Below, piece after piece: positions 3,580 to 6,030 of a stretch of 10,236 nucleotides of DNA. The first letter of the stretch is position 1; every line of letters starts with the position of its first letter. The stretch is from Lachnoclostridium sp. (GTDB lineage Bacteria > Bacillota_A > Clostridia > Lachnospirales > Lachnospiraceae): assembly GCA_015057755.1 (NCBI GenBank), contig SVDR01000074.1, positions 1 through 10,236 on the forward strand, read 5' to 3'. The position numbers and the translations under genes are program-made. The notes beneath the pieces were generated by a model that saw nothing but the letters and a program-made list of their open reading frames with translations, was not told the DNA's origin and ran no database searches.

Positions 3580-4269
3580 ATGGAAAACAAAGAAACTTTA
3601 GGACAATTTTTTCTGGGCCGTGCGAAACGTTCTGTGATTGCAGCCATCGGACTTCTGATGTATGCGGTAGGCGTATATTTTCAGCTGCAGGCTGATCTGG
3701 GAATGCAGCCATGGCAGGCAATGCGTCTTGGTCTGGCCAACCAGTTACATGTTTCGTTTGGTACAGTCAGTATCGCCATGTCCCTGGTCCTGATCGTGAT
3801 CGACATATTCTTGAAACAGAAGATTGGTCTCGGAACTTTTTTAGATGCATTTTTGGTTGGAGTTGGCATGGATATCTGTATCTATTTGGATTTCCTTCCG
3901 GTGCAGACAAATCTGTTCTTCCAGGTCTTCTGGATTGCTGCAGGAATGGTTGTTTGCGCGTTTGGCCAGTGGCTTTATATGACAACCGCATTATGCTGCG
4001 GTCCGGTGGATTCCTTCCTGCTGGGAATTGGACAATTATTCCCGAATATATCCATCGGAAAGGTAAATTTTGGAATCTTGGCAGTGGTCCTTGCAATCTG
4101 TGTAGTATTAAAGAGTCCATTGGGAATTGGTACAGTGATCACCGTAGTTTTTACAGGATTTATCATGGATGCAGTGTTTGCATTTGTTAAATTCAAACCT
4201 CGAAAGGTTGTTCATGAAGGCTTGTTCGAAACAGCGGCTGTATTTATGAACGCGATCAAGAAAAATTAG
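3580..4269 (+). CDS. YczE/YyaS-family integral membrane protein, copy 1
   Basis: A 229-aa polytopic membrane protein of the poorly characterised YczE/YyaS group, with about five to six hydrophobic segments. Family motifs seen: GMQPWQAM (41-48), IGLGTFLDAFLVGVGMD (82-98), GQWLYM (129-134), CGPVDSFLLGIG (140-151) and PLGIGT (180-185). The N- and C-terminal halves look like diverged repeats of each other. The ATG at 3580 is preferred: the in-frame TTG at 3556 would place AAAGGA (3559-3564) inside the gene rather than before it, although the gap to ATG 3580 is somewhat long (15 nt). It lies 53 bp after the lyase gene with no strong terminator between, and 41 bp before its paralogue, so one transcript is likely. 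The molecular function is unknown. YczE in Bacillus is linked genetically to secondary-metabolite production, but nothing here points to that role. Transport is an inference from topology and context. Confidence 0.85.
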   Translation: MENKETLGQFFLGRAKRSVIAAIGLLMYAVGVYFQLQADLGMQPWQAMRLGLANQLHVSFGTVSIAMSLVLIVIDIFLKQKIGLGTFLDAFLVGVGMDICIYLDFLPVQTNLFFQVFWIAAGMVVCAFGQWLYMTTALCCGPVDSFLLGIGQLFPNISIGKVNFGILAVVLAICVVLKSPLGIGTVITVVFTGFIMDAVFAFVKFKPRKVVHEGLFETAAVFMNAIKKN

Positions 4270-4310
4270 TGAGAAAAGATACAAACAGATGCGTCTGTGA
4301 AAGGAGTAGT

Positions 4311-4997
4311 ATGAAAAACACAGAAACATTTACACAATTTTTATTAAACCGCATTGGAAGAAGCTTATTTGCGGTGGTGGGACTTTTGGTATTTGCCCTC
4401 GGTTCCTATTTTCAGATTCAGGCAAACTTTGGCATGTCTCCGTGGAACTCCCTCAGCCAGGGTATTTCCATGAACTATCCGATCACCTTTGGTACAGCTA
4501 ATATCATCATTTCATTTATTATCATTTTAATTGATATTTTGATGAGAGAGCCGATCGGTATCGGAACGATTTTAAATGCGATCATCATTGGCGCCGGTAC
4601 AGATGTATTCCTTGCGATCGGATTTCTTCCGCAGCAGACAAGCTTTATCGGAAAGTTCCTGGTTCTGATGGCAGGTATCGTTATCACATGCTTTGGCCAG
4701 TTCCTTTACATGAAAGCCTGCCTGAGCTGTGGTCCGCGTGATTCTCTTCTCGTAGGTCTCGGAAAGAAGTTCCCGAAGGTAAAAATCGGTTATGTAAACA
4801 TGGCACTTCTTGCTATGGTGCAGATCGTTTGTTTCATCCTCGGAAGCCCGGTTGGTCTTGGAACGATCATTTGTGTGTTTGGTACAGGTACGATCACCAA
4901 TATCGTATTCGGTTTCCTGAAATTCGAACCGCGTGCCCTGAAGCATGAGAGTATTATCGATACCATTGCGGCAGGTAAGAAGGCGTTAGAGAAATAA
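4311..4997 (+). CDS. YczE/YyaS-family integral membrane protein, copy 2 (tandem paralogue)
   Basis: A 228-aa protein that aligns without gaps to copy 1 over nearly its entire length, at roughly 40-45% identity by hand count. This is an old tandem duplication, not a recent one. Shared motifs: GMSPWNSL (41-48), PIGIGT (81-86), GQFLYM (129-134), CGPRDSLLVGLG (140-151), PVGLGT (180-185) and KFEPR (204-208). The start is the ATG at 4311, preceded by AAAGGAG (4300-4306). An in-frame GTG at 4269 overlaps the upstream stop and lacks comparable support. Two members of different sequence but equal length may form a heteromer, as paired small membrane proteins often do; this is an inference. The gene ends 2 bp before palindromic element A, which probably supplies or disturbs its 3' end. 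No function is known. Confidence 0.87.
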   Translation: MKNTETFTQFLLNRIGRSLFAVVGLLVFALGSYFQIQANFGMSPWNSLSQGISMNYPITFGTANIIISFIIILIDILMREPIGIGTILNAIIIGAGTDVFLAIGFLPQQTSFIGKFLVLMAGIVITCFGQFLYMKACLSCGPRDSLLVGLGKKFPKVKIGYVNMALLAMVQIVCFILGSPVGLGTIICVFGTGTITNIVFGFLKFEPRALKHESIIDTIAAGKKALEK

Positions 4998-4999
4998 AT

Positions 5000-5237
5000 G
5001 TGGATTTCATTGAGTAAATAAAATAGCATATCTGTAGAAAAAACCATACTATCTCCAAATACGGTTGACTACCTTTACTTCGATGCGATTTTATCCGACT
5101 GTAATCGGTCGCGATAACAGCGTTTGCGACCTTTGTACAGTCGAAAATCTTTCGAAGCGCAGTCGTCCAACCTATCATTGGAGATATGTATGGTTTTTTC
5201 TATCAGATACTATATTTATTTACCAATATAAATCCAC
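5000..5237 (-). mobile_element. Palindromic MITE-like element A
   Basis: A 238-bp imperfect palindrome bounded by GTGGATTT (5000-5007) and AAATCCAC (5230-5237). The ~60-bp arms pair almost throughout, including a TAGAAAAAACCATAC block (5035-5049) matched by its reverse complement on the right. The inner core (5063-5172) forms four stacked helices: CTTCGA/TCGAAG (5078-5083, 5152-5157), GATTTT/AAAATC (5087-5092, 5144-5149), CGACTGTA/TACAGTCG (5096-5103, 5136-5143) and GGTCGC/GCGACC (5107-5112, 5126-5131). They close a 13-nt loop at 5113-5125. Loop polarity puts this copy on the minus strand relative to element B. No transposase and no credible reading frame lies inside. No clear target-site duplication was found. 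It begins 2 bp after a stop codon. Identification as a non-autonomous mobile element is inferred from the second copy and the terminal repeats. Confidence 0.7.
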
Positions 5238-5291
5238 TTGTATTTTACAAACCATCAATTTCCAGTTCTTTCGTGGATTTGCGGTTAATAT
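5238..5291. other. 54-bp AT-rich spacer between the two elements
   Basis: It contains TTGTATTTTA at 5238-5247, repeated directly at 5292-5301 where element B begins, and an isolated GTGGATTT at 5273-5280 identical to the element termini. The latter may be an older end or a remnant, giving an alternative left boundary of 5273 for element B. No gene is visible. Confidence 0.5.
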
Positions 5292-5527
5292 TTGTATTTT
5301 ATTTAGTGGATAATATAAAGTTCTGATAGAAAATCCCATACTATACTCAAATCTTTGGCTAAACGACTGCGCTTCACAAGTTTTGCGCCCTTACAGAGGA
5401 CGCAAACGTTTTTATCGCGTCCGTCGTAAGGGCGGATAAAACGCTGTGAAGCAAAGGCAGTCAGCCTAATTTGAGATAGTATGGGATTTTCTATCAGAAC
5501 TTTATATTATTACTAAATAAAATCCAC
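5292..5527 (+). mobile_element. Palindromic MITE-like element B
   Basis: A 236-bp palindrome of the same family as element A. The right end is AAATCCAC (5520-5527); the left end is degenerate (TTGTATTT, with two mismatches to GTGGATTT). Arms share TTCTGATAGAAAATCCCATA (5321-5340) with its perfect inverse near 5480-5499. The core (5357-5466) stacks GGCT/AGCC, GCTTCACA/TGTGAAGC (5371-5378, 5445-5452), TTTT/AAAA, CGCCCTTAC/GTAAGGGCG (5386-5394, 5426-5434) and GGACGC/GCGTCC (5398-5403, 5417-5422). The 13-nt loop is at 5404-5416 and differs from the loop of A at only two bases (AAACG, variable CTG or TTT, TTATC). It ends 16 bp before the stop codon of the convergent deacylase gene, so both neighbouring transcripts would run into palindromes. 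Confidence 0.7.
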
Positions 5528-5543
5528 CTATATGCCAATACCG

Positions 5544-6011
5544 TTAGCGTTCCTTACACACATCAATCCAATTCGTGCTTCCGGAAAAATGCTCCAACTC
5601 CGGAAGAGTCAGGCGTACGGCGCTGTTTCCGCTGCCGGCTGCCGGATAAACGATGTCGAAGCGTTTGAGGGATTCGTCCAGATATACATCGATTCCGTCT
5701 TTGATCACGAATGGGCAGACGCCGCCCGGAGCATGTCCGATCAGTTCCTCTACGATGGCGCCAGGAATCATTTTGGCTTTTGTGTGGAACAATTCTTTAT
5801 ATTTCTTATTGTCCACCTTCACATCACCTGCAGTCAGGATTAAGATTGGCTGTTCTCCAACAAGGAAAGAAAGTGTTTTTGCAATACGAGCCGGTTCACA
5901 ACCAACCGCTTCAGCAGCAAGTTCGACGGTTGCGCTGGAGTGCTCCAGCCAGAGTACTTTATCGCCTGCTCCCTGAGATTCAAAAAATTGTTTTACTTTA
6001 TCAAATGACAT
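5544..6011 (-). CDS. YbaK/EbsC-family aminoacyl-tRNA deacylase
   Basis: A 155-aa cytoplasmic protein of the YbaK/ProX editing family, which hydrolyses mischarged tRNAs in trans; the best-known member clears Cys-tRNA(Pro). Normal full length. The conserved catalytic-site lysine is K45 in AKTLSF (44-49), and the family loop appears as GHAPGGVCPF (92-101), followed by a conserved DVYLDESLKRF stretch (108-118). The start is ATG 6011 because GAGGTG (6018-6023) lies exactly 6 nt upstream; the in-frame GTG at 6020 overlaps that ribosome-binding site. It is monocistronic, with its own strong promoter, divergent from dpaL. The tRNA substrate cannot be read from sequence: the GGVCPF variant differs from the GGxSP form usual in YbaK, so a related specificity is possible. 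Its 3' end lies beside palindromic element B. Confidence 0.88.
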   Translation of the reverse strand: MSFDKVKQFFESQGAGDKVLWLEHSSATVELAAEAVGCEPARIAKTLSFLVGEQPILILTAGDVKVDNKKYKELFHTKAKMIPGAIVEELIGHAPGGVCPFVIKDGIDVYLDESLKRFDIVYPAAGSGNSAVRLTLPELEHFSGSTNWIDVCKER

Positions 6012-6030
6012 AACGATCACCTCGGTTTCT

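Follow-up and report, generated by a model that had tools for sequence, protein, structure and literature searches.

A dispersed palindromic family with a covarying core, probably a mobile element tolerated at gene 3′ ends in Lachnospiraceae

The window analysed here, the whole 10,236-nucleotide stretch of the Lachnoclostridium contig SVDR01000074.1, carries two giant imperfect hairpins, elements A and B, which lie inverted to each other between two convergent genes. Both belong to a family of repeats with a common core of about 125 nt. A covariance model of this core alone (R3) finds it in 11 of 397 sampled Lachnospiraceae genomes, its paired positions covary beyond chance, and in three genomes the copies are biased towards gene 3′ ends. 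We consider it rather probable that A and B are copies of a dispersed, non-coding, non-autonomous palindromic element that is tolerated at gene 3′ ends by means of a terminator-like hairpin.

RNA folding of A gave an energy of -103.9 kcal/mol (z -14.5) and that of B -134.1 kcal/mol (z -19.0), and in neither case did any of 200 dinucleotide shuffles fold as well. B holds an inverted pair of 35 nt at 100% identity. A first-pass annotation of the window had described two elements of closely matched length, each with three core helices that differ in sequence between A and B and keep pairing. The 238 bp of A stand; the fold of B starts at 5527, and its length depends on an inner edge that is approximate because the outermost pairs have two possible pairings. 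All six arm pairs of the named helices and both 13-nt loops were located. In A (+), CTTCGA at 5078 pairs with TCGAAG at 5152, CGACTGTA at 5096 with TACAGTCG at 5136, and GGTCGC at 5107 with GCGACC at 5126, leaving the loop from 5113. In B (-), the corresponding helices are CTTCACA (5445-5451) with TGTGAAG (5372-5378), CGCCCTTAC (5426-5434) with GTAAGGGCG (5386-5394), and GGACGC (5417-5422) with GCGTCC (5398-5403), the loop occupying 5404-5416. Side-by-side reading of the two loops bears out that they are alike apart from two bases. The list of three helices is correct as far as it goes; the helices are more numerous and the arms longer. The layout had been called head-to-head and needs correcting: the two inverted elements face each other with their 3′ ends, as defined on the strand of each. 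The outer stem of B contains bulged bases and is followed by a four-T run. Among listed open reading frames of at least 80 aa, one (82 aa) lies inside A and none inside B.

Three covariance models define the family: R1, built from 17 copies; R2, a broader model; and R3. The many-genome searches scored only 7 or 8 candidates per genome under strict filters, so that their counts are lower bounds. R1 recovered copies in 7 of the 397 family genomes, and R3, for which both window copies were among the building sequences, added G175, G209, G266 and G333, weakly so in G209 (E 7.6e-5) and G175 (a partial match, E 4.7e-7). A renewed search of seven genomes with R2, scoring up to 150 candidates in each, gave matches at E 0.01 numbering 25 in G413, 19 in G182, 16 in G217, 14 in G001 (one of them antisense), 10 in G199, 5 in G002 and 3 in G003. 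In an order-level sample, R2 matched 2 of 392 genomes, G001 itself and G333. G001, from water-buffalo cecum, was reached as a relative through the window's flanking gene, whose 242-aa product is 94% identical on one of its Lachnospiraceae contigs (L001), and it holds about a dozen dispersed copies. Matches at E 0.01 occurred in 10 of 98 relatives, strong only in G001 and in G002, a second species. The further copies that the first-pass annotation expected in related Lachnospiraceae are thus present, at up to 25 matches per genome.

Rfam 15 contained no match to the window, relaxed searches (one of which took in seven loci) giving only sub-cut-off matches to microRNA-precursor and other unrelated models, and plasmids and phages contained no DNA match to the A-B region. 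Two exact 15-16-mer scans of viral contigs returned 84 and 9 stretches; these look like chance rather than relatives of A and B, and BLAST of both elements against the loci concerned gave zero matches at E 0.01.

Several loci of the family are unusual in themselves. Four core copies stand in tandem on the same strand in G333, 212-224 nt apart and near a contig end (L262 4780-5574), and L013 182-347 joins a B-type left arm to an A-type right arm, an apparent recombinant within a facing pair. In C166, C53 and C345 of G001 and in C191 and C47 of G002, the outer stem is kept and the core wholly or partly lost. One G217 core (L247 3255-3505) has a fold that bears a further hairpin at its own tip, and other short palindromic repeats, for example GGAAACAC..GTGTTTCC and GGGACGACTTCCTTAGTCGT, occur in intergenic DNA of G182 in the flanks of L268, L271, L276 and L265.

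Upon comparison of the cores, we noticed that the letters of a central internal loop are nearly fixed, with a left strand of about CCT(A/G)CC(T/C)T and a right strand of about C(A/G)GTC, and that many stem letters vary pairwise; a TT/AA step and an A-rich terminal loop are kept as well. Weighted by genome across seven genomes and the window, mean identity was 0.86 in the central loop (11 scorable of 13 chosen columns, five of them above 0.95), 0.76 in the inner helices and 0.52 in the outer helices. We measured covariation in an alignment (A4) of 49 copies from the same seven genomes and the window, with matches at E 1e-10 or better from 41 sources, G413 being represented by only eight of its 20 loci. 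In A4, 89.8% of cells were paired versus 61.9% after shuffling, 26 of 30 pairs had changed on both sides versus 22.6 (3 of 500 shuffles as high), double-change cells numbered 431 versus 138, and the covariation score was 0.719 versus 0.212 (0 of 500), with 0.137 for the best slid version; the shuffled and slid controls leave part of the relatedness in, and the counts lean towards the model structure to which A4 was fitted. In alignments made with MAFFT only, double changes occurred at 14 of 49 (A1) and 25 of 30 (A3) predicted pairs. Copies in G266, G333, G175 and G209, found with R3 and used in no model, show the same architecture by eye, G175 only in part, and in G266 the helix CTTYRC/GYRAAG is replaced by CCTGTC/GACAGG.

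The paired change first seen between A and B is therefore right and exceeds chance, and over many copies the covariation exceeds both kinds of control. Its proposed cause, selection on a folded form, either RNA or single-stranded DNA, may hold in part: the covariation would fit it. The differences between outer arms in G217 and G199, described below, fit insertion into different hairpins. The annotation had also cautioned that gene conversion between arms could keep helices matched. Comparison of the window's B with its syntenic B copy in G001 is informative here: among 69 pairs of the window fold, 53 are unchanged, 4 double-changed and none altered on a single side, while 11 are broken and 1 is gapped. 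Pairing is thus not strictly maintained at each base, and correction between arms may contribute to the matched helices.

The copies are concentrated at gene ends. A gene 3′ end pointing at the copy lies within 80 nt for 13 of 14 copies in G217 (random 0.31, P 3e-6), 7 of 10 in G199 (0.25, P 0.003) and 9 of 12 in G001 (0.27, P 7e-4), where the random expectation comes from random intergenic bases of the same loci, and three weak G217 matches and 5 of 25 in G413 were left out. With boundaries set by hand, 7 of 14 G001 copies start 0-5 nt past a stop codon, and four more lie at most 20 nt from a stop or overlap it. In the window, both neighbouring genes converge on the pair: A begins 2 nt past the stop codon of a gene for a 242-aa protein, and 16 nt separate B from the end of a YbaK-like gene (Table 1). 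Facing pairs of this kind recur in G001 (C126, C286 and, at a contig end, C74), in G003 (C211) and in G209; G182 has several facing units whose second hairpin scores weakly. The gene-end location, together with the terminator-like outer stem of G217 and largely of G199, adds to what had been read from the window. At A's place in L001 (3286-3570), a second long palindrome (fold -106.7 kcal/mol) faces the B copy; it has no match to R3. In G002, a copy with 87% identity likewise faces a core element, at another locus (L036 1827-2093). This palindrome perhaps represents another family of gene-end hairpins.

Table 1. Positions of elements A and B, their parts and the adjoining genes in the window
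Feature	Position	Strand	Basis
Gene, 242 aa, membrane-protein-like	4269..4997	+	Open reading frame list; Pfam DUF1206 sub-threshold only
Element A, giant imperfect hairpin	5000..5237	+	RNA fold and covariance matches
Conserved core of A	5054..5181	+	R3 match 5055-5181, 102.4 bits; edges from alignment A4
Terminal loop of A, 13 nt	5113..5125	+	Located in sequence
Six-T run directly 3′ of A outer stem CCATAC/GTATGG	5194..5199	+	Sequence; terminator-like, function putative
Spacer separating A from B	5238..5291	.	Sequence
Element B, giant imperfect hairpin	5292..5527 (inner boundary approximate)	-	RNA fold and covariance match
Conserved core of B	5348..5474	-	R3 match, 108.5 bits
Terminal loop of B, 13 nt	5404..5416	-	Located in sequence
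Gene with aminoacyl-tRNA editing domain (YbaK-like)	5544..6020	-	Pfam PF04073, E 1e-22

The outer stems differ between genomes, and those of G217 are the most telling. There, the cores are alike in all copies and homology ends near the core edge. Bases 8-16 outside the core have a between-copy identity of 0.31 across 12 copies (0.28 expected by composition), and the same arms are paired at 0.98 within a copy and at 0.31 between copies; this comparison left out L243 (-), whose arms nearly repeat its partner's, and L246 (-), whose arms are unpaired. The stretch has a GC fraction of 0.60 and is followed by an AT-rich stretch. When the core was removed by script and the flanks joined, a terminator-like hairpin with a T tract appeared in 12 of 13 G217 copies at a score of at least 30, compared with 1 of 156 cross-joins between flanks of different copies at score 30. 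In the exception, L246 (-), an ordinary terminator of score 31 stands close by, and the other twelve have no terminator above 18 within 100 nt beyond their arms. Ordinary G217 terminators start 17-79 nt past the stop codon, and 13 of 14 element copies start 15-77 nt from the gene end. In G199, joined flanks gave such hairpins in 10 of 10 copies at score 20 and 9 of 10 at 30, with 37 and 21 of 90 cross-joins, respectively, these rates being high because several G199 copies share arms. Since the G217 arms are unrelated between copies and the cores alike, compensatory evolution cannot be the sole cause of their differences; for part of the paired change in G217 and G199, insertion into different hairpins is a better reading than compensatory mutation.

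Orthologous sites offer a partial comparison. G716, the only other genome of G217's genus compared, has no copy by R2, and at the seven orthologous gene ends recovered out of nine queried the element is absent from all. Four of these seven ends carry a terminator of score 23-32. The first-pass annotation had proposed to look for empty sites; these ends are element-free, but because the stems there are not recognisably those of G217, they do not amount to a true empty allele.

Evidence for movement comes from G413. The elements of this genome have inverted ends, GTTACAG..CTGTAAC, and direct repeats of 8 bp in their flanks agree at 57.5% identity versus 27.3% for shuffled partners (z 6.4, 0 of 2000; 20 loci read of 25 matches, of which 15 passed an automatic end search). 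At least 4 of the 15 ends seem wrongly set (L223, L232, L237 and L242), which should weaken the signal, and among lengths 2-12 only 10 stood out besides 8 (p 0.011). Inverted ends GTGGATTT..AAATCCAC also mark many copies of G001 and the window. The mobile nature claimed for the family is accordingly backed by target duplications, in G413 only. The largest other duplication signal (z 4.9 in G199) lies far out and is attributed to shared flanks of near-identical copies.

No autonomous partner was recognised. Ten loci with G413 ends, of up to 3 kb, contained no obvious transposase by eye, no family search having been run on their reading frames, and an autonomous element with these ends was not seen there. 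At L243 3007-4767 of G217, a 312-aa gene lies between two facing copies that carry about 90 nt of additional inverted flank; Pfam gives no match to this gene at E 0.001, and NCBIfam none above its cut-off. An Rpn nuclease was considered as mobiliser because of one gene between a facing pair in G217; it was rejected on its distribution, with no PF12784 match in the three genomes searched, and on the lack of family matches to that gene. The Y1 transposase was likewise rejected as the family's mover: among eight core-bearing genomes searched it is present in G199, G413 and G333, a distribution that does not follow the family.

Together, these observations fit one folded core dispersed in several wrappers: terminator-like tips in G217 and G199, arm-carrying units in G001, G002 and the window, an element with 8-bp duplications in G413, inverted-pair units in G182, long shared ends in G266 and a tandem array in G333. 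Most likely, the element spreads into non-essential gene 3′ ends, where its hairpin would keep or replace the terminator and hence be tolerated. The outer stem would be either terminator-shaped at the host gene (G217 and G199) or would travel with the core (the window clade, G413, G182 and G266). For the two window copies, this predicts that transcription of the membrane-protein gene upstream stops at A and that of the facing ybaK-like gene at B. Judged from their sequences, the hairpins are predicted to terminate transcription; the core may enter the loop of a terminator, and its fold may be recognised in trans by some factor. A more specific and distinctly tentative version holds that the core, as DNA or RNA, is recognised by a Lachnospiraceae-wide partner, inserts into terminator loops, adopts their stem and leaves termination intact, and that some lineages (G413, G182, G266 and the window clade) packaged it into different transposons.

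A number of observations weigh against these proposals. In G413, 13 of 20 copies lie near gene ends where a fraction of 0.48 is expected, which is no significant bias (P 0.1). For 3 of 12 G001 copies, no gene end lies within 80 nt. Unpaired core columns outside the central loop vary (0.31-0.67), and some helix columns, such as the TT/AA step, are as fixed as the loop. G199 arms are partly related (identity 0.39 versus 0.30 in the seven of ten copies compared). The embedded stems of G217 exceed the ordinary terminators of that genome in length (medians of 19 and 14 pairs, P 0.014); the extra pairs may form a short stem adjoining the core. Only 6 of 41 element-free G217 gene ends have an ordinary terminator at score 25. 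Of the three remaining G716 ends, one scores 17 and two have no terminator, though folds show hairpins at both. Removing the core left a hairpin of score 20 in only 1 of 13 copies of the window clade (cross-joins 12 of 156), A and B both being negative, and in 0 of 10 copies of G413, where removing the whole element gave 2 of 9 (cross-joins 15 of 72). Convincing target duplications were found neither in G001 with the window, G002, G182, G217 and G199 at lengths 5, 8 and 9 nor in a second scan of G266 and G182. Rpn (PF12784) was not found in G413, G002 and G333, nor was Y1 (PF01797) in five of eight core-bearing genomes (G001, G002, G003, G182 and G217).

By the same score, insertion at a terminator tip is not borne out for the window's own copies, for which the six-T run (A) and four-T run (B) after the outer stem remain. 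Arms in the window clade are common to copies, which often lie directly behind stop codons. A formal terminator scan found none in the A-B region, as expected for loops this long, and a terminator role of the outer stems of A and B, with their T runs, is putative.

Three other explanations deserve weighing against a dispersed element tolerated at gene ends. An ordinary palindromic miniature inverted-repeat transposable element (MITE) would be moved by a resident insertion-sequence transposase, survive in harmless 3′ ends and have its arms matched by template switching or gene conversion. The 8-bp duplications and inverted ends of G413 are what it predicts, the copies that lost their core resemble palindrome deletion, the L013 recombinant suits it, and so does the excess of broken pairs (11) over double changes (4) between syntenic B copies; the excerpt of PMC3049150 describes the same convergent-gene bias for the pneumococcal repeats BOX, RUP and SPRITE. 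Arm correction would, however, erase asymmetric internal loops, yet the letters of the central loop are among the best kept, and the private paired arms of G217 are not a product of such correction. MITEs usually conserve their ends rather than their inside, and a core kept between lineages with differing ends is the reverse of this pattern. We regard this explanation as unlikely.

Less probable still is an RNA used by the host at 3′ ends (a terminator, an mRNA stabiliser or a released small RNA) that is selected in the host and spread by duplication or recombination with little or no transposition. It would suit the G001 copies that follow stop codons directly (7 of 14), the facing pairs of the window, G001 (C126, C286 and C74) and G003 (C211), the covariation, the terminator-shaped arms of G217 and G199, and two orthologous sites that by eye are occupied in both G001 and G002 (C74a/g2C116 and C9/g2C99). 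Such an RNA is hard to square with a core confined to 11 of 397 family genomes and absent from the congener G716, with the target duplications of G413 and with the four-copy tandem array of G333. We give very little weight to a REPIN-like single-strand element whose transposition would depend on a Y1 (HUH) enzyme and whose mobile unit would be the facing A-B pair. Facing inverted pairs do recur, as in doublets of repetitive extragenic palindromes (REPs), but the Y1 family is missing from five of eight core-bearing genomes, the elements are several times longer than REPs, and many copies stand alone. Nor is a duplication of 8 bp, as seen in G413, known as a signature of Y1 transposition.

The closest known kinds are palindromic MITEs, SPRITE/BOX and REP/BIME, here compared through excerpts of the cited papers. 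SPRITE, BOX and RUP are described as dispersed, folded and enriched between convergent genes, and SPRITE as enriched near gene 3′ ends and resembling a long Rho-independent terminator (PMC3049150); by these descriptions they are like the present family, which is dispersed, folded and non-coding with a gene-end and convergent bias. SPRITE is given there as an 18-bp duplex with a T-rich tract, whereas here a kept core of about 125 nt sits on a sometimes locus-private stem and is found with differing ends in several genomes. In the excerpt of PMC10969869, prokaryotic MITEs form stable hairpins with short direct repeats, 7-9 bp in QMITE2. The present elements resemble them in being small, multicopy and non-coding, with terminal inverted repeats and a predicted stable folded transcript (and 8-bp repeats in G413); unlike in MITEs, lineages agree in the inside of the element and differ in its ends, and the inspected loci contained no parent insertion sequence. 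With REP, BIME and REPIN sequences they have in common that they are extragenic palindromes, often 3′ of genes and possibly moved in trans; REPs, as excerpted, measure 20-40 bp and bear GTAG or CGTC tags, those with GTAG having RAYT partners (PMC3733652), and A and B measure about 236-238 bp. Insertion at stem-loops or palindromes is also known from group IIC introns, one of which is described as poised at a DNA stem-loop (PMC10190682), and from some insertion sequences that target REPs (PMC1525189), as far as those excerpts go. Group IIC introns are ribozymes with a maturase; here no such part was seen, Rfam matches to class C group II introns and long reading frames were lacking in the elements, and the core sits at a stem tip. 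Stem-loop families catalogued in the excerpt of PMC2267715, including bcr1, are by description similarly multicopy with a common fold and also occur in Firmicutes. In the titles and opening parts of abstracts returned by text searches of open-licence papers, we found nothing treating the A/B family or repeats at terminator tips.

The family carries a warning for covariation analyses, in that paired change between copies can reflect insertion into different hairpins rather than compensatory mutation. The family also supplies many naturally covarying stems grouped around unpaired letters that hardly change, and such a collection could help to identify the partner by which they are read. If cores do enter terminator loops, structure-directed integration would become testable on about twenty natural insertions, in two genomes, whose target stem can still be read, and terminator loops would offer a structure-guided mobile element an almost neutral insertion site, reusable without harm to its host.
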